Positions 42,906 to 59,497 of a stretch of DNA of 64,000 nt are shown one piece after another. A program made the position numbers and the translations under genes. Within the stretch, counting starts at the first letter, position 1, and each line of letters opens with the position of its first letter. The notes below the pieces were generated by a model that was not told the origin of the DNA, did no database searches, and saw only the letters and a list, made by a program, of their open reading frames with translations. The stretch is from Thiocapsa bogorovii (GTDB lineage: Bacteria > Pseudomonadota > Gammaproteobacteria > Chromatiales > Chromatiaceae): contig NZ_CP089309.1 in NCBI RefSeq assembly GCF_021228795.1, positions 1,550,001 through 1,614,000 on the forward strand, written 5' to 3'.

Positions 42906-44573
42906 CTACCGGATTGACCCTTCCCTTTTGAGGTCGTCCATTTTCAGATTGTGCGGCAGCAGCGCCGCGACCGCCTCGGGGGACTTGGCACCGGGCAGGT
43001 GCTCGAAGAGGTGGTTGAGGTAGGCCCAAGGCTCCAGGCCATTGGCCTTGGCGGTTTCGATCAGGCTGAAGAGCAGCGCGCTGGTTTCGGCGCCCTTGGG
43101 ACTGCCGGCGAAGAGCCAGTTCTTTCTCCCGACCACAAAGGGCCGGATGGCGTTTTCGGCGATGTTGTTGTCGATCTCCAGGTGCCCGTCCTCGAGAAAG
43201 GTGATGAGGATCGGCCATTGGCCGAGGGCATAGGCGATGGCTTCGCCGAGCAGGCTTTTGGGAAGCACGCGGGTGGCGGTGCGATCCAGCCACCGGCGGA
43301 TGCGCATGAGGATCGCTCGACTGTGCTCGCTACGCCCGCGCAGCCGGGTCTGGGGATCGGCGTCGCGCAGGCGCCGCTCCACCGCATAGAGCTCCCCGAT
43401 CAGGGCCACCATCTGCTGCGCGGCACCGGCGTTGCGCCCGTTGGCGGCATCGACGAACTTGCGTCGCACGTGCGCCCAGCACCCGGCATGGCCGATGACT
43501 CCGGGCGCAGCGGCGAGGACACCATAGGCGCCGTAGCCGTCGGATTGCAGATACAACGGCAGCGGCGGCGGATCGACGTCGCTCGCGAACAGCACCCGAC
43601 GAGGGACTTCCGCGGCCCGGCTCGGGGCATACTCGAACCAGCGCACCGGTGTGCCCGGCGGCCCGCCGCAAAACACCCACATGTAGGAGTCTTGCGTGTT
43701 CTCGCGTCCGGGCTCGCGCAGGACCTGCACCGGCGTCTCGTCGATATGCACCACCGCTCCCCGGCGCAGCAGGTCTTTCAGCGCCGCGGCGACGGGTTGC
43801 AGCGGAACCTGCAGTTGGATGAGCAAGCCCGCCATGGTTTGGCGCCCGAGCGCGATGCCCTCGCGCGCGAAGATCGTCTCCTGACGATACAGCGGCAGGG
43901 CATCGACGAACTTGGCCGTCACGATGGAGGCCAGCAATGAGCTGTGGGCGATGGATTTGGGGATGATCTGCGCCGGACGCGGGGCGATCTTCACCCCGAC
44001 CTCCGCGCCCGGCACATCTTCGTTACGGGCAACGTATTTGGCGCGCTTGTATTCGATGACGTAGGTCTGGCGGGGGATGACCGCCAGTTGCTCGGAGCTG
44101 TCGTAGCCGATCAAGACCCAATCCTCGCCCATGGCGGCTTTCTCCGCCTCGGGCAGATCCAGGATACGCTCGACCCGCGGCAGATGGCTCGGCAGCGGCC
44201 GGCGCACCGGCTTGCCCTTGGGCGGCGCGAGGGTGTCTTCGGCGGGTGTCGCCGGCGGCGCGGTGTCGGCCGGCAGCTCGGCTTCCAGTTCGGCGATCAG
44301 CGCCTCGAGCTCGGTCTCGTCAAACAGCCCGAGCTGACTCTCGGGGATGCGATCGGCACTGCGGCCGAAGCGCTTGCGCCGCAACAGCTCGATGTACTCG
44401 AGCAACTGGTCAATACGCCGGGTCTGCTGTTGCAGGGTATTGGAGTGCTGTTCCAACTGCAGCGACTGTTCGGCTCGCTCGCGTTCGGATTGCGCCAGTT
44501 GATCGCTTAACCGGCCAATGATCCCGTGGAGCATCTCGGGGTCATTCGGAAGTCTTTGAAGCGGGCCGTCCAT
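42906..44573 (-). CDS. tnpC: IS66 transposase TnpC (copy 1)
   Basis: 555 aa DDE transposase. N-terminal coiled coil (QSLQLEQHSNTLQQQTRRID), a Zn-binding-like region, then the catalytic core HIDETPVQVLREPG, LQSDGYGAYGVLA, and GHLEIDNNIAENAIRPFVVG followed by FAGSPKGAETSALLFSLIE. It ends 16 bp from the IS end. Confidence 0.95.
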   Translation of the reverse strand: MDGPLQRLPNDPEMLHGIIGRLSDQLAQSERERAEQSLQLEQHSNTLQQQTRRIDQLLEYIELLRRKRFGRSADRIPESQLGLFDETELEALIAELEAELPADTAPPATPAEDTLAPPKGKPVRRPLPSHLPRVERILDLPEAEKAAMGEDWVLIGYDSSEQLAVIPRQTYVIEYKRAKYVARNEDVPGAEVGVKIAPRPAQIIPKSIAHSSLLASIVTAKFVDALPLYRQETIFAREGIALGRQTMAGLLIQLQVPLQPVAAALKDLLRRGAVVHIDETPVQVLREPGRENTQDSYMWVFCGGPPGTPVRWFEYAPSRAAEVPRRVLFASDVDPPPLPLYLQSDGYGAYGVLAAAPGVIGHAGCWAHVRRKFVDAANGRNAGAAQQMVALIGELYAVERRLRDADPQTRLRGRSEHSRAILMRIRRWLDRTATRVLPKSLLGEAIAYALGQWPILITFLEDGHLEIDNNIAENAIRPFVVGRKNWLFAGSPKGAETSALLFSLIETAKANGLEPWAYLNHLFEHLPGAKSPEAVAALLPHNLKMDDLKREGSIR

Positions 44574-46378: not shown

Positions 46379-48046
46379 CTACCGGATTGACCCTTCCCTT
46401 TTGAGGTCGTCCATTTTCAGATTGTGCGGCAGCAGCGCCGCGACCGCCTCGGGGGACTTGGCACCGGGCAGGTGCTCGAAGAGGTGGTTGAGGTAGGCCC
46501 AAGGCTCCAGGCCATTGGCCTTGGCGGTTTCGATCAGGCTGAAGAGCAGCGCGCTGGTTTCGGCGCCCTTGGGACTGCCGGCGAAGAGCCAGTTCTTTCT
46601 CCCGACCACAAAGGGCCGGATGGCGTTTTCGGCGATGTTGTTGTCGATCTCCAGGTGCCCGTCCTCGAGAAAGGTGATGAGGATCGGCCATTGGCCGAGG
46701 GCATAGGCGATGGCTTCGCCGAGCAGGCTTTTGGGAAGCACGCGGGTGGCGGTGCGATCCAGCCACCGGCGGATGCGCATGAGGATCGCTCGACTGTGCT
46801 CGCTACGCCCGCGCAGCCGGGTCTGGGGATCGGCGTCGCGCAGGCGCCGCTCCACCGCATAGAGCTCCCCGATCAGGGCCACCATCTGCTGCGCGGCACC
46901 GGCGTTGCGCCCGTTGGCGGCATCGACGAACTTGCGTCGCACGTGCGCCCAGCACCCGGCATGGCCGATGACTCCGGGCGCAGCGGCGAGGACACCATAG
47001 GCGCCGTAGCCGTCGGATTGCAGATACAACGGCAGCGGCGGCGGATCGACGTCGCTCGCGAACAGCACCCGACGAGGGACTTCCGCGGCCCGGCTCGGGG
47101 CATACTCGAACCAGCGCACCGGTGTGCCCGGCGGCCCGCCGCAAAACACCCACATGTAGGAGTCTTGCGTGTTCTCGCGTCCGGGCTCGCGCAGGACCTG
47201 CACCGGCGTCTCGTCGATATGCACCACCGCTCCCCGGCGCAGCAGGTCTTTCAGCGCCGCGGCGACGGGTTGCAGCGGAACCTGCAGTTGGATGAGCAAG
47301 CCCGCCATGGTTTGGCGCCCGAGCGCGATGCCCTCGCGCGCGAAGATCGTCTCCTGACGATACAGCGGCAGGGCATCGACGAACTTGGCCGTCACGATGG
47401 AGGCCAGCAATGAGCTGTGGGCGATGGATTTGGGGATGATCTGCGCCGGACGCGGGGCGATCTTCACCCCGACCTCCGCGCCCGGCACATCTTCGTTACG
47501 GGCAACGTATTTGGCGCGCTTGTATTCGATGACGTAGGTCTGGCGGGGGATGACCGCCAGTTGCTCGGAGCTGTCGTAGCCGATCAAGACCCAATCCTCG
47601 CCCATGGCGGCTTTCTCCGCCTCGGGCAGATCCAGGATACGCTCGACCCGCGGCAGATGGCTCGGCAGCGGCCGGCGCACCGGCTTGCCCTTGGGCGGCG
47701 CGAGGGTGTCTTCGGCGGGTGTCGCCGGCGGCGCGGTGTCGGCCGGCAGCTCGGCTTCCAGTTCGGCGATCAGCGCCTCGAGCTCGGTCTCGTCAAACAG
47801 CCCGAGCTGACTCTCGGGGATGCGATCGGCACTGCGGCCGAAGCGCTTGCGCCGCAACAGCTCGATGTACTCGAGCAACTGGTCAATACGCCGGGTCTGC
47901 TGTTGCAGGGTATTGGAGTGCTGTTCCAACTGCAGCGACTGTTCGGCTCGCTCGCGTTCGGATTGCGCCAGTTGATCGCTTAACCGGCCAATGATCCCGT
48001 GGAGCATCTCGGGGTCATTCGGAAGTCTTTGAAGCGGGCCGTCCAT
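46379..48046 (-). CDS. tnpC: IS66 transposase TnpC (copy 2)
   Basis: 555 aa, residue-for-residue the same as the TnpC of copy 1, with the DDE core (HIDETPVQ, SDGYGAYG, DNNIAENAIRP) intact. Confidence 0.95.
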   Translation of the reverse strand: MDGPLQRLPNDPEMLHGIIGRLSDQLAQSERERAEQSLQLEQHSNTLQQQTRRIDQLLEYIELLRRKRFGRSADRIPESQLGLFDETELEALIAELEAELPADTAPPATPAEDTLAPPKGKPVRRPLPSHLPRVERILDLPEAEKAAMGEDWVLIGYDSSEQLAVIPRQTYVIEYKRAKYVARNEDVPGAEVGVKIAPRPAQIIPKSIAHSSLLASIVTAKFVDALPLYRQETIFAREGIALGRQTMAGLLIQLQVPLQPVAAALKDLLRRGAVVHIDETPVQVLREPGRENTQDSYMWVFCGGPPGTPVRWFEYAPSRAAEVPRRVLFASDVDPPPLPLYLQSDGYGAYGVLAAAPGVIGHAGCWAHVRRKFVDAANGRNAGAAQQMVALIGELYAVERRLRDADPQTRLRGRSEHSRAILMRIRRWLDRTATRVLPKSLLGEAIAYALGQWPILITFLEDGHLEIDNNIAENAIRPFVVGRKNWLFAGSPKGAETSALLFSLIETAKANGLEPWAYLNHLFEHLPGAKSPEAVAALLPHNLKMDDLKREGSIR

Positions 48047-51946: not shown

Positions 51947-52921
51947 CTAGATTTCGAACCACCAGCACTTTCCAACCCCAACGGAATAGCAGTCATAGTT
52001 ATACTTCTGGGGATCTGCATGTACCACCTCAACGCTTCTATTCTCTTGACAATACTTAAGGGCGCCTAGAACTTGGACCTTGGTTCCGTTCAGATTCACC
52101 ACGATGTTGAAAGCCGCGCCGTAAAGTTCGCCGATGCGACACATTACATTGTAAGAACCGACATAATCACGCGAACCCACGAGAAAGATCTTCTCAATCT
52201 TATAACCAAACTCATTTATTACTGCTTCGCTCCTCCTGAGAAACACTTGATCCACATCTTTTTTGTACTGTTGCTCGCTCTGCCCTATCACAATGATTCG
52301 ATCTGGCTCCAATTTCTTGATCGTCATTAAAGCGCGCTCGGGCTCGTGGCCCAACTGAACAGCTAAGAGGCTGCTCTTATGCACTCCTTGCCGACCGTTA
52401 AATCCAGGTATAGAGGAAATTCGCCTCACCCCCTTACTGAGCCACCCAATCGACTCCTTTTCGATTTCCGAAGCATAGCGCTCAGGCTCGTGATAAAAAA
52501 TCCCAATACGAGTGCAAGGATTCAGGCGCGCCACGTAATCAACCAGAATTATCATCCTTTCTCGCGGAAACGTGGAAATATCGACAACTACCCGCCCCCC
52601 CGCCCTCAAGTCAAGCCCCAGCTTATTGTCCAGGCAATTAAGTAATTCGCCACCAAACCCCCGCGGAACGGCCACTTCTTCAACAGTTACTCCAACGGCT
52701 TCCCTGAGTCGTCGGACCAGCGTCTCATGATTACAGGCATACTTTTCCGAGCCACTGAAACTCTCCGTATGAACCACGACCGCCCTTGTGGCAACCGATA
52801 AGAGTGCAGTCTGGCCCAATATACCAAGGCAGCGGTCCTCATAGCTCGAATGGCAGACCACTGCAACCGCGCCATTGCCAACTTCGGCAATTATTCCGTC
52901 ATGACATTCGCTCAATTTCAT
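51947..52921 (-). CDS. Rossmann-like protein of unknown function in the candidate defence island
   Basis: 324 aa, not recognised with confidence. Two alpha/beta modules are visible: AVAVVCHSSYEDRCLG and GGRVVVDISTFPRERMIILV in the first; PDRIIVIGQSEQQ, KIEKIFLVGSRDYVGSYNVM, NIVVNLNGTKVQVLGALKYC and VEVVHADPQKYNYDCYSVG in the second. The NLNGTK segment is reminiscent of the N-x-T/N-G-G-T-K loop of CARF-type nucleotide sensors, which is only an analogy. Its start overlaps the stop of the ATPase gene (4 bp), so the two are coupled. No membrane segment. Confidence 0.7.
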   Translation of the reverse strand: MKLSECHDGIIAEVGNGAVAVVCHSSYEDRCLGILGQTALLSVATRAVVVHTESFSGSEKYACNHETLVRRLREAVGVTVEEVAVPRGFGGELLNCLDNKLGLDLRAGGRVVVDISTFPRERMIILVDYVARLNPCTRIGIFYHEPERYASEIEKESIGWLSKGVRRISSIPGFNGRQGVHKSSLLAVQLGHEPERALMTIKKLEPDRIIVIGQSEQQYKKDVDQVFLRRSEAVINEFGYKIEKIFLVGSRDYVGSYNVMCRIGELYGAAFNIVVNLNGTKVQVLGALKYCQENRSVEVVHADPQKYNYDCYSVGVGKCWWFEI

Positions 52922-54294
52922 TCATCCATCTCCGCCCACAAACCGAGATGACCCTGCCTCCCTTCGTCTCCCTTGTCTCTCGAACCAAAGACCACATTTC
53001 GTAGGAAACTCTCCGGGTCTCTGGCTGCCAACTCAACATCCTGAATGCGGATCTCACATCGCCCTTGAAGCTTGACTCCAAGCCCCTTACGCGGCACCAG
53101 CCTCCGATTCAAAACGTAAGTTGGAAATTTCACTCCGGTCGGAGTCTTTGCTGGGTAGTCCTGCTTCCGCCGATGCAGCACAGACTCTCTCACGGCGATA
53201 TCCAATATCGTCTTCCCAAATGAGCCCTCTTCTATAGTCCCCTTGATTGCGACCGCAATGACTTCACCGTCTTTTACATCTGAATGCAACCGATGATAGA
53301 ACAACGCCGAAAGGCTCTCCGCCAAGTTTATTATGTGCCTTCCATTCACCTCGTGTTCATTGTGGGACAGCGAACTGGTATCACCGGCAGTCTCACCCAT
53401 GCTCTTAATCATGTCGTTTGAATACGCCTTGATCGCGTCATTCTGAATTTCCACCCCAATTTTTTTCCCTTTTGCGGGAGTCCACCCAGCGTCGAGAGCC
53501 TTCGATACGATATGACTGCAAATCTCCAGAAACTGCCGAAATATTCCCGATGAGATATCAACAATAGTGTTCTGGCCAGCATACCTATGCTCGACCTTGT
53601 TCTTTCTCAAATACCGGAAATAATACGAAACCTTTTGCTTGTCATAGAAGCTCTGGAAACTATTCGGTCGCCTGCCCGCTGGCATATGATCAAAAGCTTC
53701 CCGCATTTCAGCTTTCACCAAATCGCGAAGCTCACTACCCCTCCGCCAATCCTCAAAAAGGGACGAAAACGATAGATCGCTTGGCCAATTGGAAGATTCG
53801 AGACGTTTGTTCGCAATTTCGATCACTGTTTTCTTATAATTCCCTTCTCCACGGGCTCCTTCAAGCCCCTTGTCCAGCCAAATCAGCTCGATTAAATCAT
53901 AGTCATCTCCCTCTCTGTAGGTTCGACCTCGCCCTGCCAAATTCGTCCTCCGCCCAAAGGTCATAATGCCAAATTTATAGCATATGAGCGCATGATTTCT
54001 TTCGGCAGCGCAACGAAATAGATACTCTTGCTGCTCGGAGTTCAACGAGTCGAAGTCATCGATCAGCAAAAAGAAAGGACAAGTTAAATTTAAAGTCTTA
54101 TGAATTGCTGTCAAGAAAGAATAAAACGAGGTAGAGACCGCCAGCCGCGTATTATACGAAGTTGCATCTGCGCCTGGCAGAAGAGAAGCAATGTGATTAT
54201 CGATTTCCTCAATACACTCATCGCATTTCTCCAAAGCGACGCAACTGAGTTTACCCCAAGTATTGCAAGCCTCCCCATCCTCAAGCCGCAACAA
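52918..54294 (-). CDS. ATPase C-terminal part (Walker B and winged region), second half of a split gene
   Basis: 458 aa from a TTG. Walker B is CPFFLLIDDFDSLNSEQQ (acidic pair at residues 79-80). FGIMTFGRRTNLAGRGRTYR and ISSGIFRQFLEICSHIVSKA resemble ORC/Cdc6-family ATPases of bacterial defence loci. There is no Walker A; that motif is at the end of the preceding frame (54300-55724). The two frames join if one base is restored in the GGGGAAAA run near 54310, so a 1-bp deletion, a sequencing error or programmed -1 shifting should be considered. About 300 residues follow the ATPase core without a known domain. Confidence 0.7.
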   Translation of the reverse strand: MLRLEDGEACNTWGKLSCVALEKCDECIEEIDNHIASLLPGADATSYNTRLAVSTSFYSFLTAIHKTLNLTCPFFLLIDDFDSLNSEQQEYLFRCAAERNHALICYKFGIMTFGRRTNLAGRGRTYREGDDYDLIELIWLDKGLEGARGEGNYKKTVIEIANKRLESSNWPSDLSFSSLFEDWRRGSELRDLVKAEMREAFDHMPAGRRPNSFQSFYDKQKVSYYFRYLRKNKVEHRYAGQNTIVDISSGIFRQFLEICSHIVSKALDAGWTPAKGKKIGVEIQNDAIKAYSNDMIKSMGETAGDTSSLSHNEHEVNGRHIINLAESLSALFYHRLHSDVKDGEVIAVAIKGTIEEGSFGKTILDIAVRESVLHRRKQDYPAKTPTGVKFPTYVLNRRLVPRKGLGVKLQGRCEIRIQDVELAARDPESFLRNVVFGSRDKGDEGRQGHLGLWAEMDE

Positions 54295-54299
54295 GCGAC

Positions 54300-55724
54300 T
54301 TAATTTTCCCCGAATTGCCCCAAGCCATTCTCTATCCTCGTGTTCTCGTCAATCAAGACAGACAGACTATCGACGGCTCTAGCAACGAAAAACAGGGTCA
54401 ACCGTTCCCCGAAAAGAGCGGCGCGTCGATCGCGGTCACCTATAACCTGAACATCCGTTCGCGCAAAGCCCTTCGTTGATATCCTGCAATAGATCCCAAA
54501 ATATTCGAGCTGCCTTAGACGTTCGTCAGCTTTTCTTGATTCCAACGCTGCATGCTGTGCGTCAATAGAGAGATACCGCAATAACATTGTCTTTCCGGTG
54601 CCTCGCTGACCCTCTACTATAGCGTCAAACTTATTTGTTATCCTATTCAGGAAATTATTCTTATCTACAAATAGCTTGGGTATTATATGTGGATTGATGT
54701 CGTTGGCCGCGACTGAATCAAAAGGATTCTCATACTGAACAGCAACGTGAACTCTCTCTATCGGGACCTCTTCTATTCGACCGCCTTGGTCGGCCACTGA
54801 CGGCAAACGAACAGGAATCGATTTACTCAATTTGGCGTTCTTCTCCCATGTACCAGAGTCGTTGGCGTATTCAACCAACTGACACACCAGCCTAGACTTC
54901 GCCAGGTCCACGTCAATAATCCAAAACGATTGCTCCCACTCCGCACCCTGATAGGCTGCGCCTGCTGCAAATGATGCGATACCAGCACCAGTCGCCGCGA
55001 ACGCGCTTTTCCCAGATCGTTCATGCAGGTGTCCGTGAAGGTAGACGTGCGGACCCGTTTCTTGATTGAGCGTCGATGAAAGCTTCTGCGCGTTCCAGTC
55101 CGCAAGCCAATCTAGCGGATGATGCCCTACAGCAATTATTAAGTTTGTCTCCGCATCAAAGTCTTTCAGACAACCATTGATGCTATTCATGTCGACGCAC
55201 AGTCTTCTTTCATCATCGTTGCCACAGGAAAGAACAGCTGTATTCAAGCATAAAAAATGGATCGGCAACCCTTGCTTCTCGACACTTACGCAGTCGATGA
55301 ACGGGTTCTCTCGCCATCCATTTAGAAAGTTATCATTCTGAATTTGCTCAAAGCAATCGAAGAACGGCCGAAGATGATTGTGAGAGCGATATATCTTCCC
55401 TTTCTGTCGATTGAACGAATCTTCCGTAGGCGACGCTAGCCTTAGATCGTCAATCTCCGCCGACGCGCGATCTACATCATGATTTCCCGGGACCACCAAA
55501 ATCTGGCTACAAGTAACCGCTGCCAAACGCGAAAGCCAGTCAAATCCCTCCATCAGTTCCGTTTCGTTAGCGCGTTGTGAGAGGTCTCCGGAAAAGATCA
55601 GAAAATCCAAGTTAATGCTGTTGGTATCGAAGTACTTCGATATGCCTTTGAGCATACGTTCCTGCTCAGCCGCGTTGTCTGAGATCCCGAAGTGAACATC
55701 TGAAACATGAAGAATCCGAACCAT
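54300..55724 (-). CDS. Metallophosphoesterase fused to a P-loop ATPase N-terminus
   Basis: 474 aa. Residues 1-270 form a calcineurin-like phosphoesterase with all motifs: HVSDVHFG (Asp9, His11), SGDLS (Asp47), PGNHDVDR (Asn81, His82), VGHHP (His201) and LHGHLHE (His230, His232, His234). A linker (~280-350) leads to a Walker A, EGQRGTGKTMLLRYLS (residues 371-386), and then EYFGIYCRIST. The frame ends at 54300 and the ATPase continues in the next ORF. The phosphoesterase could act on nucleic acid or nucleotides, gated by the ATPase. It follows the methyltransferase gene by 52 bp. Codon use is AT-richer than in the carboxysome genes. Confidence 0.8.
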   Translation of the reverse strand: MVRILHVSDVHFGISDNAAEQERMLKGISKYFDTNSINLDFLIFSGDLSQRANETELMEGFDWLSRLAAVTCSQILVVPGNHDVDRASAEIDDLRLASPTEDSFNRQKGKIYRSHNHLRPFFDCFEQIQNDNFLNGWRENPFIDCVSVEKQGLPIHFLCLNTAVLSCGNDDERRLCVDMNSINGCLKDFDAETNLIIAVGHHPLDWLADWNAQKLSSTLNQETGPHVYLHGHLHERSGKSAFAATGAGIASFAAGAAYQGAEWEQSFWIIDVDLAKSRLVCQLVEYANDSGTWEKNAKLSKSIPVRLPSVADQGGRIEEVPIERVHVAVQYENPFDSVAANDINPHIIPKLFVDKNNFLNRITNKFDAIVEGQRGTGKTMLLRYLSIDAQHAALESRKADERLRQLEYFGIYCRISTKGFARTDVQVIGDRDRRAALFGERLTLFFVARAVDSLSVLIDENTRIENGLGQFGEN

Positions 55725-55776
55725 TGTCAGCGCCCTGTACTGTGCATGGCAGCGTGTATTGGATGAAAGCTAAGCG

Positions 55777-56832
55777 TCATGCCGAGACGATTTTATCAAA
55801 TATTGCTTTCGCAAGCAGTGGTGGAACTGCGTTACCCACCTGTTGTTGTTGGAATCCTATCGACCCCTTGAAGTGATACCAGTCCGGGAAGGACTGCAGT
55901 CTTGCTGCCTCTCGCACTGACAGTCCTCGGTTTTGCCTAGGATGAATAAGCATGTTCTTTCGAAAGTTTCCAAGAACGACGGAGGGCTGATCTTCTGCAA
56001 GCCTGCGATAGATTCCTGTATGGCAACGACGGACGTCTTTGTAATTTCCCATCATCTTTTCTGGAATGCTCTCCCAATTGGCTCCCTGTGGAATATACGC
56101 GTATCTTTCAAGCACCTGCGAACTATTTCTTGACACGAGGTGGTTCGTACACCCTATTTGGCTACCACGGAGTGAATACGCGTAAGACGTTGTCGGCTCC
56201 GCCACATATGGTAAGAAGCATGTTGATGCACCATTATTGAGTTCCGGTAAGTCAAATATTGCGTCGCGAACACAAACGGCACCCCCACGGTGGGCTTGAG
56301 GAAATTCGAATGCTCTCTCCCCTAGCGAAGCAACAATAAAAAAACGCTGCCGGTTCTGAGGCACACCATAGTCAACAGCATTCAGGATCGCTTGTGCGAA
56401 AGAGTAGCCCAAGCCAGTAAGTTCCTCGCCGATCATCCTTACAAAAAAACCCCCTTCCGTTTCGACGAATCCCTTGACGTTCTCAAAAACCACCCATTCA
56501 GGCATATAAAGTGAAACGATCCTCAAGAATTCTTTGAACAGCCAGTTGTTCAGATTACTTTTCGACCTATTCCTCTGATTCGAAGTTGAAAAACCCTGGC
56601 AAGGAGGCCCCCCAAAAAGGACTATCTCGGATTTACGTGTAATTGGGAGTTTCTCAAACTTGCGGATATCGTCGTTGAAGAATACGGATGGGCGTCCGTG
56701 ATTATGAAGATAGGTTTCACCCGCGTGCCTGTCGTGCTCGGCAACAATACAAGGGGTAATGCCTGCTAGTCTTGCGCCCAGCGACATGCCCCCCGCTCCT
56801 GAGAATAAATCTATCCCGATCACAAGCGCCAA
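55777..56832 (-). CDS. C5-cytosine DNA methyltransferase
   Basis: 351 aa. Conserved motifs in order: I DLFSGAGGMSLG (residues 8-19), IV FGGPPCQGFS with catalytic Cys78, VI ENVKGF (117-122), VIII QNRQRFF (159-165), IX SVREAARLQSFPDWY and X QVGNAVPPLLAKAIF. The target-recognition region (~170-290) is short and not assignable. It makes 5-methylcytosine at an unknown site. First gene of the AT-rich island; no restriction endonuclease is adjacent. Confidence 0.93.
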   Translation of the reverse strand: MALVIGIDLFSGAGGMSLGARLAGITPCIVAEHDRHAGETYLHNHGRPSVFFNDDIRKFEKLPITRKSEIVLFGGPPCQGFSTSNQRNRSKSNLNNWLFKEFLRIVSLYMPEWVVFENVKGFVETEGGFFVRMIGEELTGLGYSFAQAILNAVDYGVPQNRQRFFIVASLGERAFEFPQAHRGGAVCVRDAIFDLPELNNGASTCFLPYVAEPTTSYAYSLRGSQIGCTNHLVSRNSSQVLERYAYIPQGANWESIPEKMMGNYKDVRRCHTGIYRRLAEDQPSVVLGNFRKNMLIHPRQNRGLSVREAARLQSFPDWYHFKGSIGFQQQQVGNAVPPLLAKAIFDKIVSA

Positions 56833-56887: not shown

Positions 56888-57208
56888 TTAAAAGGAGGCA
56901 GGCCATGTTTTCAACCGCGTCAGCTCCTCATACATCCAAGCCGGGTTGAGATCCGCGCCATTCGGCCAGGTGACAACGCCCATTTCAAGACGCGCTTGCT
57001 TGAAGTAGCTCGGATCATTGAGCGGTTCGTAGATGCCGCGGTCATGAGCCGAGGTGAACGCCGAGAGATCTGCGACGCCGCTGGTGCCATCTTGGAATGT
57101 CACCGCCCGGCGATAGTCCGGCAATATCGACAATCCCTTCACGCGCCAAGGAGAGGCCGGAATCACTCCAATGGCGCGATCCGTTTCGGAAGCTGCTTCA
57201 ATTGGCAT
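56888..57208 (-). CDS. DUF2442 family protein (copy 1)
   Basis: About 106 aa from the ATG at 57208: VKGLSILPDYRRAVTFQDGT, FTSAHDRGIYEPLNDPSYF, VVTWPNGADLNPAWMYEEL. DUF2442 proteins usually pair with DUF4160 proteins in small operons suspected to be toxin-antitoxin-like. Its partner here is reduced to a scrap (57209-57270). A near copy is at 59147-59497. Confidence 0.82.
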   Translation of the reverse strand: MPIEAASETDRAIGVIPASPWRVKGLSILPDYRRAVTFQDGTSGVADLSAFTSAHDRGIYEPLNDPSYFKQARLEMGVVTWPNGADLNPAWMYEELTRLKTWPASF

Positions 57209-57361: not shown

Positions 57362-58918
57362 TCATGACGCGAAGCGAACCGTCGGGTAGGGGTGAGCCAG
57401 TTTCACCGACGGTAGATATTTTCGAGCCAGCCTGTTACACCTCGACCAGGGCATCCGGTGCTTGTGACTACGCCGCATGAGAGACTGACGCCAGGCGCGG
57501 GTGACTTCCGCTCGGAAGCCGTCCAGGCGTTTGAGATTGCCCGGCACCGCGTGGTAGTTGAAGTAGCCCCGCAGGACGCGGCCCAGCCATTTTCCTTGCT
57601 CCGGAATTGGCGCGTGGCGCTGCTCCCTCAGTCGCCCCCGGATCGCCGCCAGCGTCGCCCGCATCCGCTTTTTGACGGTGCGTCTGACGATCGCGAATCG
57701 GCCTTTCCGGGTCTTGCCGCAGATGTGCGTAAAGCCGAGAAAATCAAACGTCTCCGGCTTTCCCAATCCCTGGCGTTTCCGGTTGGAAGCAGCGTAGCGG
57801 CCAAACTCGATCAGCCGCGTCTTCTCCGGATGCAGTTCCAGACCGAAGCGCTGAAGGCGTTCGCGCAGGTCCGCAAGGAAGCCGCGCGCCTCCACCTCAG
57901 CCTGAAATCCATACACGCTATCATCGGCATAGCGGACCAGGATGACCTGGCCGCGCGCGTGCCGCCGGCGCCATTGGTGCGCCCAAAGGTCGTGAACGTA
58001 GTGCAAGTAGATATTCGCCAGTAACGGCGAAATCACCGCACCTTGCGGCGTACCCCGTTCGCCGGGAACCCGCCGTCCTTGTTCGTCGATGACGCCTGCT
58101 TTCAGCCAGTTGCGGATCAGTCGAAGGATCCGTCGATCCGCGATCCGGTGTTCCAGGAATCGCATCATCCACCCGTGATCGAGCATGTCGAAGAACGAAC
58201 GGATGTCTGCGTCCAAGACCCAGTTGACCGGCCTGGTGTCGATGGCGACATAGAGCGCGTCCAGCGCTTGGTGTTGGCTCCTGCCAGGTCGAAAGCCATA
58301 GGAGAACCCCAAGAAATCCGTTTCATAAATCGCGTTGAGGACGGTCACCACCGCCTGCTGCACGATCTTATCTTCCAAGGCGGCAATCCCCAGCGGACGC
58401 AAACGACCATCCGCCTTGGGGATGTAGACTCGCCGCGACGGCGTGGCGCGATAGGCACCGGTATGAATCCGCCGGTGCAAGTCCTCCAGCCGACTGGCGA
58501 GGCCCCCCTCGTAGCTGGTCCAGGTCACGCCGTCCACCCCCGCCGCCGCGTCCCGGCGAAGCGCATGGAAGCTCTCCTCCAGTAGCGTCGGTGTGATGTG
58601 GTGCAGCAGTGCCGTGAACTGTGCCCGCCGATCCCGGCGGGCCGCTTCGCGTACGCCTTCGAGACCCATCGACACGCGATCCCGGCTCTGTGTCCGGTGC
58701 GTGGGCGCCTCTCCAGCGTTCCCCTCGGCTACGCCCCTTCCCTCCACCACCTCCGCGGGGTTGTCCCCCTTGTTCGGCAGCTTCTTCGGTACTACGAGCG
58801 TATCCGACTTCTCATCCGCGTCGATGGCGGGATGACGGCTTTGCCTTCCCCGCCCCACCCGGTCGGCGCCGGGTACGGATGAGACCTCCCAGGTCCTGTG
58901 CAAAAGGCTTCCCGGCAT
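57362..58918 (-). CDS. ltrA: Group II intron reverse transcriptase/maturase
   Basis: About 518 aa from the ATG at 58918 (the frame is open to 59038). VDGVTWTSYEGGLASRL, PSRRVYIPKADGRLRPLGIA, VLDADIRSFFDMLDH, GTPQGAVISPLLANIYLHYV, the catalytic LVRYADDSVYGF and FDFLGFTHICGK make up the RT domain. The maturase-specific region WLGRVLRGYFNYHAVPGN follows. No HNH endonuclease domain, as in class C introns. It supports splicing and reverse-splicing mobility. Confidence 0.92.
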   Translation of the reverse strand: MPGSLLHRTWEVSSVPGADRVGRGRQSRHPAIDADEKSDTLVVPKKLPNKGDNPAEVVEGRGVAEGNAGEAPTHRTQSRDRVSMGLEGVREAARRDRRAQFTALLHHITPTLLEESFHALRRDAAAGVDGVTWTSYEGGLASRLEDLHRRIHTGAYRATPSRRVYIPKADGRLRPLGIAALEDKIVQQAVVTVLNAIYETDFLGFSYGFRPGRSQHQALDALYVAIDTRPVNWVLDADIRSFFDMLDHGWMMRFLEHRIADRRILRLIRNWLKAGVIDEQGRRVPGERGTPQGAVISPLLANIYLHYVHDLWAHQWRRRHARGQVILVRYADDSVYGFQAEVEARGFLADLRERLQRFGLELHPEKTRLIEFGRYAASNRKRQGLGKPETFDFLGFTHICGKTRKGRFAIVRRTVKKRMRATLAAIRGRLREQRHAPIPEQGKWLGRVLRGYFNYHAVPGNLKRLDGFRAEVTRAWRQSLMRRSHKHRMPWSRCNRLARKYLPSVKLAHPYPTVRFAS

Positions 58919-59146
58919 GCTCAGGGTCTCCGACCGCGCGGGATCGTCTGCGCACTTGCGATTAGCGCCCGCAGCCGTGTCGCCTTCCGCCTGTCTGTAC
59001 GACGTCGGCATCCCGGAGTTCGTGATTTCGCGGCTCAATGGCTGGCCTGCCGGTTTCCCCTGTCAACGCTTGGAGCTACGCCTCACGGCATATCCCCCAT
59101 GACTCGGGGCCGAAACGAATCGCCCTTTCTATTTCGTATCGAACTT

Positions 59147-59497
59147 TCATCGACTACCTCTTGCCAGTTTGTCCTGGCGCATCACAGACCACGTTTTAAA
59201 CTGTACCAGTTCCTCATACATCCAAGCCGGGTCGAGATCCGTCCCGTTCGGCCAGGTGACAACACCCATTTGAAGACGCGCTTGCTTAAAGTAGCTCGGA
59301 TCCTTGAGCGGTTCGTAGATGCCGCGGTCATGAGCCGAGGTGACCGCCGAGAGATCTGCGACACCGCTGGTGCCGTCTTGGAAGGTCACCGCCAGGCGAT
59401 AGTCCGGCAAGATCGACAACCCCTTCACGCGCCACGGAGCGGCTGGAATCACTCCAATGGCGCGATCCGTTTCGGAAGCTGCATCAATTGGCATCAT
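59147..59497 (-). CDS. DUF2442 family protein (copy 2)
   Basis: 116 aa from the ATG at 59497, which overlaps the DUF4160 stop (ATGA). Nearly the same as copy 1 until the last ~15 residues (VMRQDKLARGSR), which are replaced. The intact pair DUF4160-DUF2442 shows the ancestral arrangement. Confidence 0.85.
   Translation of the reverse strand: MMPIDAASETDRAIGVIPAAPWRVKGLSILPDYRLAVTFQDGTSGVADLSAVTSAHDRGIYEPLKDPSYFKQARLQMGVVTWPNGTDLDPAWMYEELVQFKTWSVMRQDKLARGSR

Follow-up and report, generated by a model that had tools for sequence, protein, structure and literature searches.

The question raised by a 64,000-nucleotide stretch of the Thiocapsa bogorovii genome (contig NZ_CP089309.1, positions 1,550,001 to 1,614,000; the whole stretch is hereafter the window) is what an AT-rich island of four open frames at its positions 51947-56832 encodes. 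An initial annotation, made from the letters alone, had proposed a new defence system comprising a DNA methyltransferase, a phosphoesterase joined to an ATPase and a Rossmann-like protein. We found the island to be a divergent relative of an operon that is conserved in other genomes and encodes a methyltransferase, a phosphohydrolase effector, an ORC/CDC6-like AAA+ ATPase and a CARF6 protein; it shares with this operon the same methyltransferase subfamily as well as the ORC and CARF genes in order. The operon, which is widespread in bacteria, is probably an antivirus system built from a DNA-marking enzyme, an ATP-driven switch, a sensor and an exchangeable enzyme that, by prediction, destroys nucleotides.

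Conservation of the operon in other genomes

Co-occurrence of the genes in unrelated genomes had been set beforehand as the check on the initial annotation, and it was borne out. The CARF query retrieved 3 of the 369 genomes of the host's class, the window included, together with two plasmids, and the neighbours of these matches and of plasmids found through the ATPase displayed a recurrent order of methyltransferase, HD-domain protein, ORC ATPase and CARF. A scan of GTDB genomes with an ATPase alignment yielded 40 loci in 8 phyla, namely Pseudomonadota (22), Bacteroidota (7), Acidobacteriota (3), Gemmatimonadota (2), Planctomycetota (2), Bacillota (2), Thermodesulfobacteriota (1), and Verrucomicrobiota (1), with phylum labels assigned by hand. 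The CARF gene adjoins the ATPase gene in 40/40 of these loci, 36 have an HD enzyme and 33 a methyltransferase of the same subfamily, the latter two being counted if located on the ATPase strand with midpoints within 4.5 kb. The nine seeds of the alignment comprised the window, five sequences from ATPase searches and three from CARF searches (L005, L006, L007), and the CARF count of 40/40 is therefore not fully independent; the component profiles were built from the seed members, the window and L032, which are partly CARF-linked loci, and four of the 40 contigs (L043, L054, L066, L067), judged by their identical lengths, are seed contigs. Among the 36 non-seed loci, CARF was found in all 36, the HD enzyme and the methyltransferase in 32 each.

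The ATPases of the 40 loci are diverse (median identity 38.5%; 37 clusters at 70% and 21 at 50%), and every one of them carries an arginine in its P-loop. Intergenic gaps between ORC and CARF range from -77 to +14 bases, and the identities of the two proteins co-vary across loci (Spearman 0.75). The corresponding correlations of methyltransferase identity are low, 0.38 with ORC and 0.25 with HD, implying that the methyltransferase is a looser partner in the operon. Both HD enzymes that were scanned exceeded the cut-off of HD-CE (Pfam PF24391).

Twenty-nine of the 33 methyltransferase genes lie directly before the HD gene, three after CARF (L052, L065, L075) and one directly before the ATPase (L073). 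An operon methyltransferase near the ATPase is lacking despite readable flanks in L048, L063 and L066, and an HD gene likewise in L048 and L073; the HD gene of L074 is split into two segments separated by about 1 kb, and L044, L054, L061 and L067 are truncated at a contig end or close to one. The ORC-CARF pair of L048, with neither effector nor methyltransferase, follows genes that by eye resemble phage-tail genes. The complete operon was also observed on three viral-contig records (L103-L105), and ORC plus CARF on a fourth (L102). A single-protein scan of viral contigs and a search of phage records gave nothing useful, and a near-identity search of plasmids returned two matches of about 70 bases.

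The ATPase family itself, ORC-CDC6-like (PF24389), was detected in 13 of the 398 genomes of a Pfam-profile sample of the phylum, and a CARF6-like neighbour was detected by the CARF profile in 7 of these 13, one of them weakly (L035, 1e-5), suggesting that the family serves other systems too. A second sample, from another class, gave PF24389 in 3 of 385 genomes at E<=1e-15; its new loci L106 and L107, which were left out of the operon counts, match the CARF profile (5e-11 and 2e-8).

The ATPase of the window is split

The initial annotation had treated the second and third frames of the island as separate genes, whereas both proved to hold parts of a single PF24389 ATPase. The profile scores 87 bits in the first piece and 149 in the second (cut-off 27), matching with its positions 1-125 at the end of frame 2 and with 164-567 in frame 3, which is in a different reading frame. 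The ATPase of the window is not one continuous chain, and the break falls between Walker A and Walker B, motifs that a single open frame holds in 40/40 relatives. For the second piece, TTG is the first start codon available. A programmed frameshift was considered and rejected, as no X_XXY_YYZ slippery heptamer occurs in frame within the 49-base overlap of the two frames; three such heptamers exist in the frame, all about 900 bases or more upstream of the overlap.

Because the ATPase is split here while all 40 relatives keep one frame, the window copy of the operon is probably inactive through a frameshift or carries a sequence error at this site. We lean somewhat towards the view that the operon in the window is a decayed remnant and no functioning system, a view supported by the break between the Walker motifs. 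Against such decay, the MPE (metallophosphoesterase) metal site, the methyltransferase motifs and most of the CARF signature residues are retained, and a sequencing slip at the ATPase might account for the split.

The effector slot

In the slot that an HD enzyme occupies in 36/40 relatives, the window carries, between methyltransferase and ORC, an MPE; no HD profile match was obtained anywhere in the window. An MPE-ORC-CARF arrangement was also identified on the three plasmids examined for it (Agrobacterium, Ensifer, Sinorhizobium) and in genomes G475 and G624 of one family. The initial annotation had not recognised the combination of the island among named systems, which holds for the window's exact arrangement, with the MPE fused to the ATPase, as it was not found elsewhere in the searches made; it does not hold for the parts, which are known (CARF6, PF24389 and, in the two relatives scanned, HD-CE).

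In the five loci that were examined, the MPE-ORC-CARF operons, which come mostly from Rhizobiales, agree with the window in all three domains and in their order, and ATPase relatives were found on 34 plasmid records, 21 from Agrobacterium and 8 from Sinorhizobium. They differ in that no fusion is present and that none of this methyltransferase was seen in the stretches fetched. Descent of the window MPE from these rhizobial operons was rejected, given the weak similarity between the enzymes (2.5e-6) and their placement on separate branches in both trees, although the branches are long.

Genes for thymidylate synthase directly adjoin 8/40 loci. ThyX is encoded downstream in L046, L047, L056 and L065, in L049 and L073 a ThyA gene overlaps the start of the methyltransferase gene, and a ThyA-like protein is encoded downstream in L078 and L080. 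Such an enzyme could refill or modify the nucleotide pool attacked by the effector, or could supply a cue. On plasmid L009, an annotated thyX lies where the CARF gene ends.

Several further loci with related components were noted. Five genomes of genus g498, from the host's family, contain 3-4 scored MPE matches each (L083-L101; frames of 364-1649 amino acids), which are possibly an expanded MPE-switch family. L030 (5345-11015) contains a dGTPase that exceeds the NCBIfam cut-off for anti-phage dGTPases, PRTase-CE, an ORC ATPase and CARF, with a gene that by eye is dUTPase-like on the opposite strand, and is thus another nucleotide-themed relative. L035, L036 and L038 hold a further PF24389 system, in which the ATPase and a downstream GAGFD-type protein stand among genes that appear by eye to be SIS-, PfkB- and NADAR-like; the GAGFD-type protein of L035 is the one with the weak CARF match. 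L037 (5139-13705) encodes a 1239-amino-acid ORC protein with a kinase-like front, as judged by eye, with two m5C (5-methylcytosine) methyltransferases and Vsr nearby.

Methyltransferase subfamily and CARF protein

The window methyltransferase shows a median identity of 55% to the 33 methyltransferases of its relatives. In the alignment of these 34 sequences, PPCQ was found in 33, and ENV and QxRxR each in 34, and the C-terminal motifs are strongly conserved, which suggests that the subfamily recognises one fixed motif. A reverse test starting from METHYLTRANSFERASE located relatives of the window methyltransferase on only 4 of 72,556 plasmid records, from Agrobacterium salinitolerans, Spirosoma rhododendri, Rhizobium leguminosarum and Yoonia; it took in relatives at E<=1e-60 only, weaker ones not being listed. 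HD, ORC and CARF genes stand beside the methyltransferase on 4/4 of these records, so that at this threshold the idea of an orphan methyltransferase was discarded and the subfamily, on plasmids, travels with the operon. By sequence, the best solved relative of the enzyme is DNMT1, ahead of the HhaI and HaeIII methylases.

The last gene had been described as a two-module alpha/beta protein and could be reassigned to the CARF6 family (Table 1). The same PADLOC model matches 41/42 aligned family members, compared with 15/42 for HFX_2341_N (PF19810) and 2/42 for CARF_Card1 at E<=0.1; the window protein itself matches HFX_2341_N at 3.5e-5 with 24.7 bits, under the Pfam cut-off of 30. It retains E28, R30, D114, Y143, G191 and K281, and departs from the family at 8 of the 31 columns that are conserved in 85% or more. 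A comparison of the CARF profile with PDB sequences yielded ten rows with E values of up to 1, and none of them is named as CARF.

Comparison with known systems

The operon as a whole combines parts from described conflict families in a combination that is unnamed in the libraries and literature searched. No model in PADLOC or NCBIfam names it, and neither library matched the two HD proteins scanned; a methyltransferase-HD-ORC-CARF operon was not found in titles and abstract starts among the matches listed, a partial coverage of the literature. HD-CE, PRTase-CE and Calcineurin-CE (PF24391, PF24390) are nucleotide-targeting conflict effectors, with "CE" presumably naming conflict systems. HD-CE and PRTase-CE are said to originate from work by Nicastro et al. 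in 2023, which may well list the methyltransferase-HD-ORC-CARF operon. The operon is linked to these effectors by its HD partner, by MPE genes that precede ORC-CARF, as PRTase-CE does in L030, and by the neighbouring Pfam accessions of HD-CE, PRTase-CE and ORC-CDC6-like (PF24391, PF24390, PF24389).

The window MPE is DS-8-like. In DS-8, an MPE and a P-loop NTPase likewise form one chain, and protection against phage depends on residues of both the metallophosphatase and the ATPase (PMC13092281). The window MPE matches the NCBIfam model DS8_antiphage at 9e-31, with 106 bits against a cut-off of 790. DS-8 differs in being a single NACHT protein, whereas the window has an ORC-like ATPase, CARF and a methyltransferase. 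The phosphoesterase also matches the front part, positions 1-311, of the 1027-position model of the PADLOC candidate PDC-S60, which is short of a full-length match.

An arginine in the P-loop of AAA+ domains has been described for an AAA+-CARF fusion family, and the Zn ribbon-kinase-AAA+-CARF-wHTH proteins of that report pair such a domain with CARF as the operon does; they carry a kinase fusion in one chain, and the portion of the report consulted describes neither an HD or MPE hydrolase nor a methyltransferase (PMC4012209). The ATPase part of the 474-amino-acid frame matches the PADLOC model CARF6--CARF_STK_AAA (PDLC01925) at 3e-12. ORC/CDC6 ATPases are reported to recur across conflict systems (PMC10853773) and to occur in BREX (PMC12839542).

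Proposed mechanism and alternative explanations

Our best explanation, to which we assign a probability of about 0.5 as a whole, is that the operon is an infection-aborting defence system. The methyltransferase would mark host DNA at one fixed motif, and the ATPase with its P-loop arginine would assemble on invading, unmarked DNA. The CARF protein would bind a nucleotide cue, and ATPase and CARF would jointly release the effector. This enzyme, which is HD-CE in most members but a DS-8-like MPE in the window, is predicted to hydrolyse nucleotides and thereby halt phage replication. The thymidylate synthase genes beside 8/40 loci support an effector of this kind. The initial annotation had likewise read the island as having self-marking and an NTPase switch with no restriction enzyme, and we judge this a fair reading. 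We would go further only tentatively, and with less confidence than in the explanation above, in surmising a cross-phylum immune system not yet named as a whole, where the methyltransferase provides the self-mark, ORC and CARF form a two-key gate, HD-CE and MPE are exchangeable, no CRISPR or cyclase gene is part of the operon, and thymidylate synthase is a recurrent accessory, with the thymidine or modified-pyrimidine pool as target or cue.

An unusual restriction-modification system, in which the methyltransferase protects a motif and an ORC-loaded HD or MPE enzyme cuts unmethylated DNA, is the next candidate, though an unlikely one. Type II restriction-modification does share an m5C methyltransferase with the island, but no restriction enzyme was recognised by Pfam among its four proteins, and an additional ATPase and CARF are present. 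The slot enzymes are unrelated hydrolases, neither the MPE frame of the window nor the two HD proteins scanned show a Pfam DNA-recognition domain, and purple acid phosphatases and phosphodiesterases outscore Mre11 in comparison with the MPE. The CARF gene found in all 40 loci is not a restriction component, and the stretches fetched for the five MPE-ORC-CARF loci contain no such methyltransferase.

Slightly less probable still is a role of the effector as phosphodiesterase of a signalling nucleotide, comparable to that of SMPDL3A for cGAMP, with CARF measuring the same messenger; the operon would then regulate or silence some other immune signal and would not itself kill. Pfam recognised no nucleotide cyclase among the four proteins, and a search of the host genome with one Cas10 palm-domain model (PF22335) gave no match over the cut-off, its single weak hit being a GGDEF protein, which by this one model makes a type III CRISPR messenger unlikely. 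A housekeeping or metabolic operon controlling nucleotides or DNA modification, carried on mobile DNA by chance, could explain the adjoining thymidylate synthase genes and is nevertheless very improbable in view of the patchy spread seen with the CARF query, the occurrence on plasmids and viral-contig records, and parts that either figure in a library of defence genes or take their names from conflict systems.

If the infection-aborting explanation is true, CARF sensing would be used outside CRISPR in a methylation-guarded system of at least eight phyla, with an effector slot that can take unrelated hydrolases. It would also join two questions, namely which ligand a free-standing CARF6 binds and how methylation-guarded systems with no restriction enzyme arrest infection, and both are testable, as the four-gene operons are small enough for cloning.

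Layout and surroundings of the island

The island consists of four minus-strand open frames (55777-56832, 54300-55724, 52918-54294 and 51947-52921). Gaps of 52 and 5 bases separate the first three, and the final two overlap by 4 bases. The GC content in 1-kb windows is 0.47-0.52 inside the island and about 0.57-0.70 in nearly all other windows, the frames themselves having 48-50% GC. Coordinates, spacing and GC profile all agree with the AT-rich, single-strand unit of the initial annotation, whose methyltransferase, calcineurin-like phosphoesterase and P-loop ATPase were each matched by Pfam (Table 1).

Table 1. Features recognised in the island, with window coordinates
Feature	Position	Strand	Evidence
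m5C DNA methyltransferase, 351 amino acids	55777..56832	-	PF00145, 1.6e-59
Calcineurin-like MPE domain, residues 1-305 of the 474-amino-acid frame	54810..55724	-	PF00149, 2.1e-15
N-terminal part of ORC/CDC6-like AAA+ ATPase, Walker A GQRGTGKT, fused behind MPE	54327..54728	-	PF24389 positions 1-130 (1-125 in another scan)
ATPase break, out-of-phase open frames overlapping by 49 bases	54300..54348	-	Frame analysis
Remainder of ORC/CDC6-like ATPase, Walker B FLLIDDFD, 458 amino acids from TTG	52918..54294	-	PF24389 positions 164-567, 2.2e-43
CARF6-family protein, 324 amino acids, presumed nucleotide sensor	51947..52921	-	PADLOC PDLC01917 CARF6, 3.9e-31

The surroundings, labelled by eye from translations, include IS66, RAYT, an intron reverse transcriptase and toxin-antitoxin genes. 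Two 555-amino-acid frames, by eye IS66-type transposases, lie a few kb from the island at 42906-44573 and 46379-48046, and their first 60 residues are identical. A direct repeat of 300 bases with 91% identity (56899-57198 and 59185-59484), containing genes that by eye are DUF2442-like, flanks a frame at 57362-59038 that was likewise labelled by eye as an intron-type reverse transcriptase.

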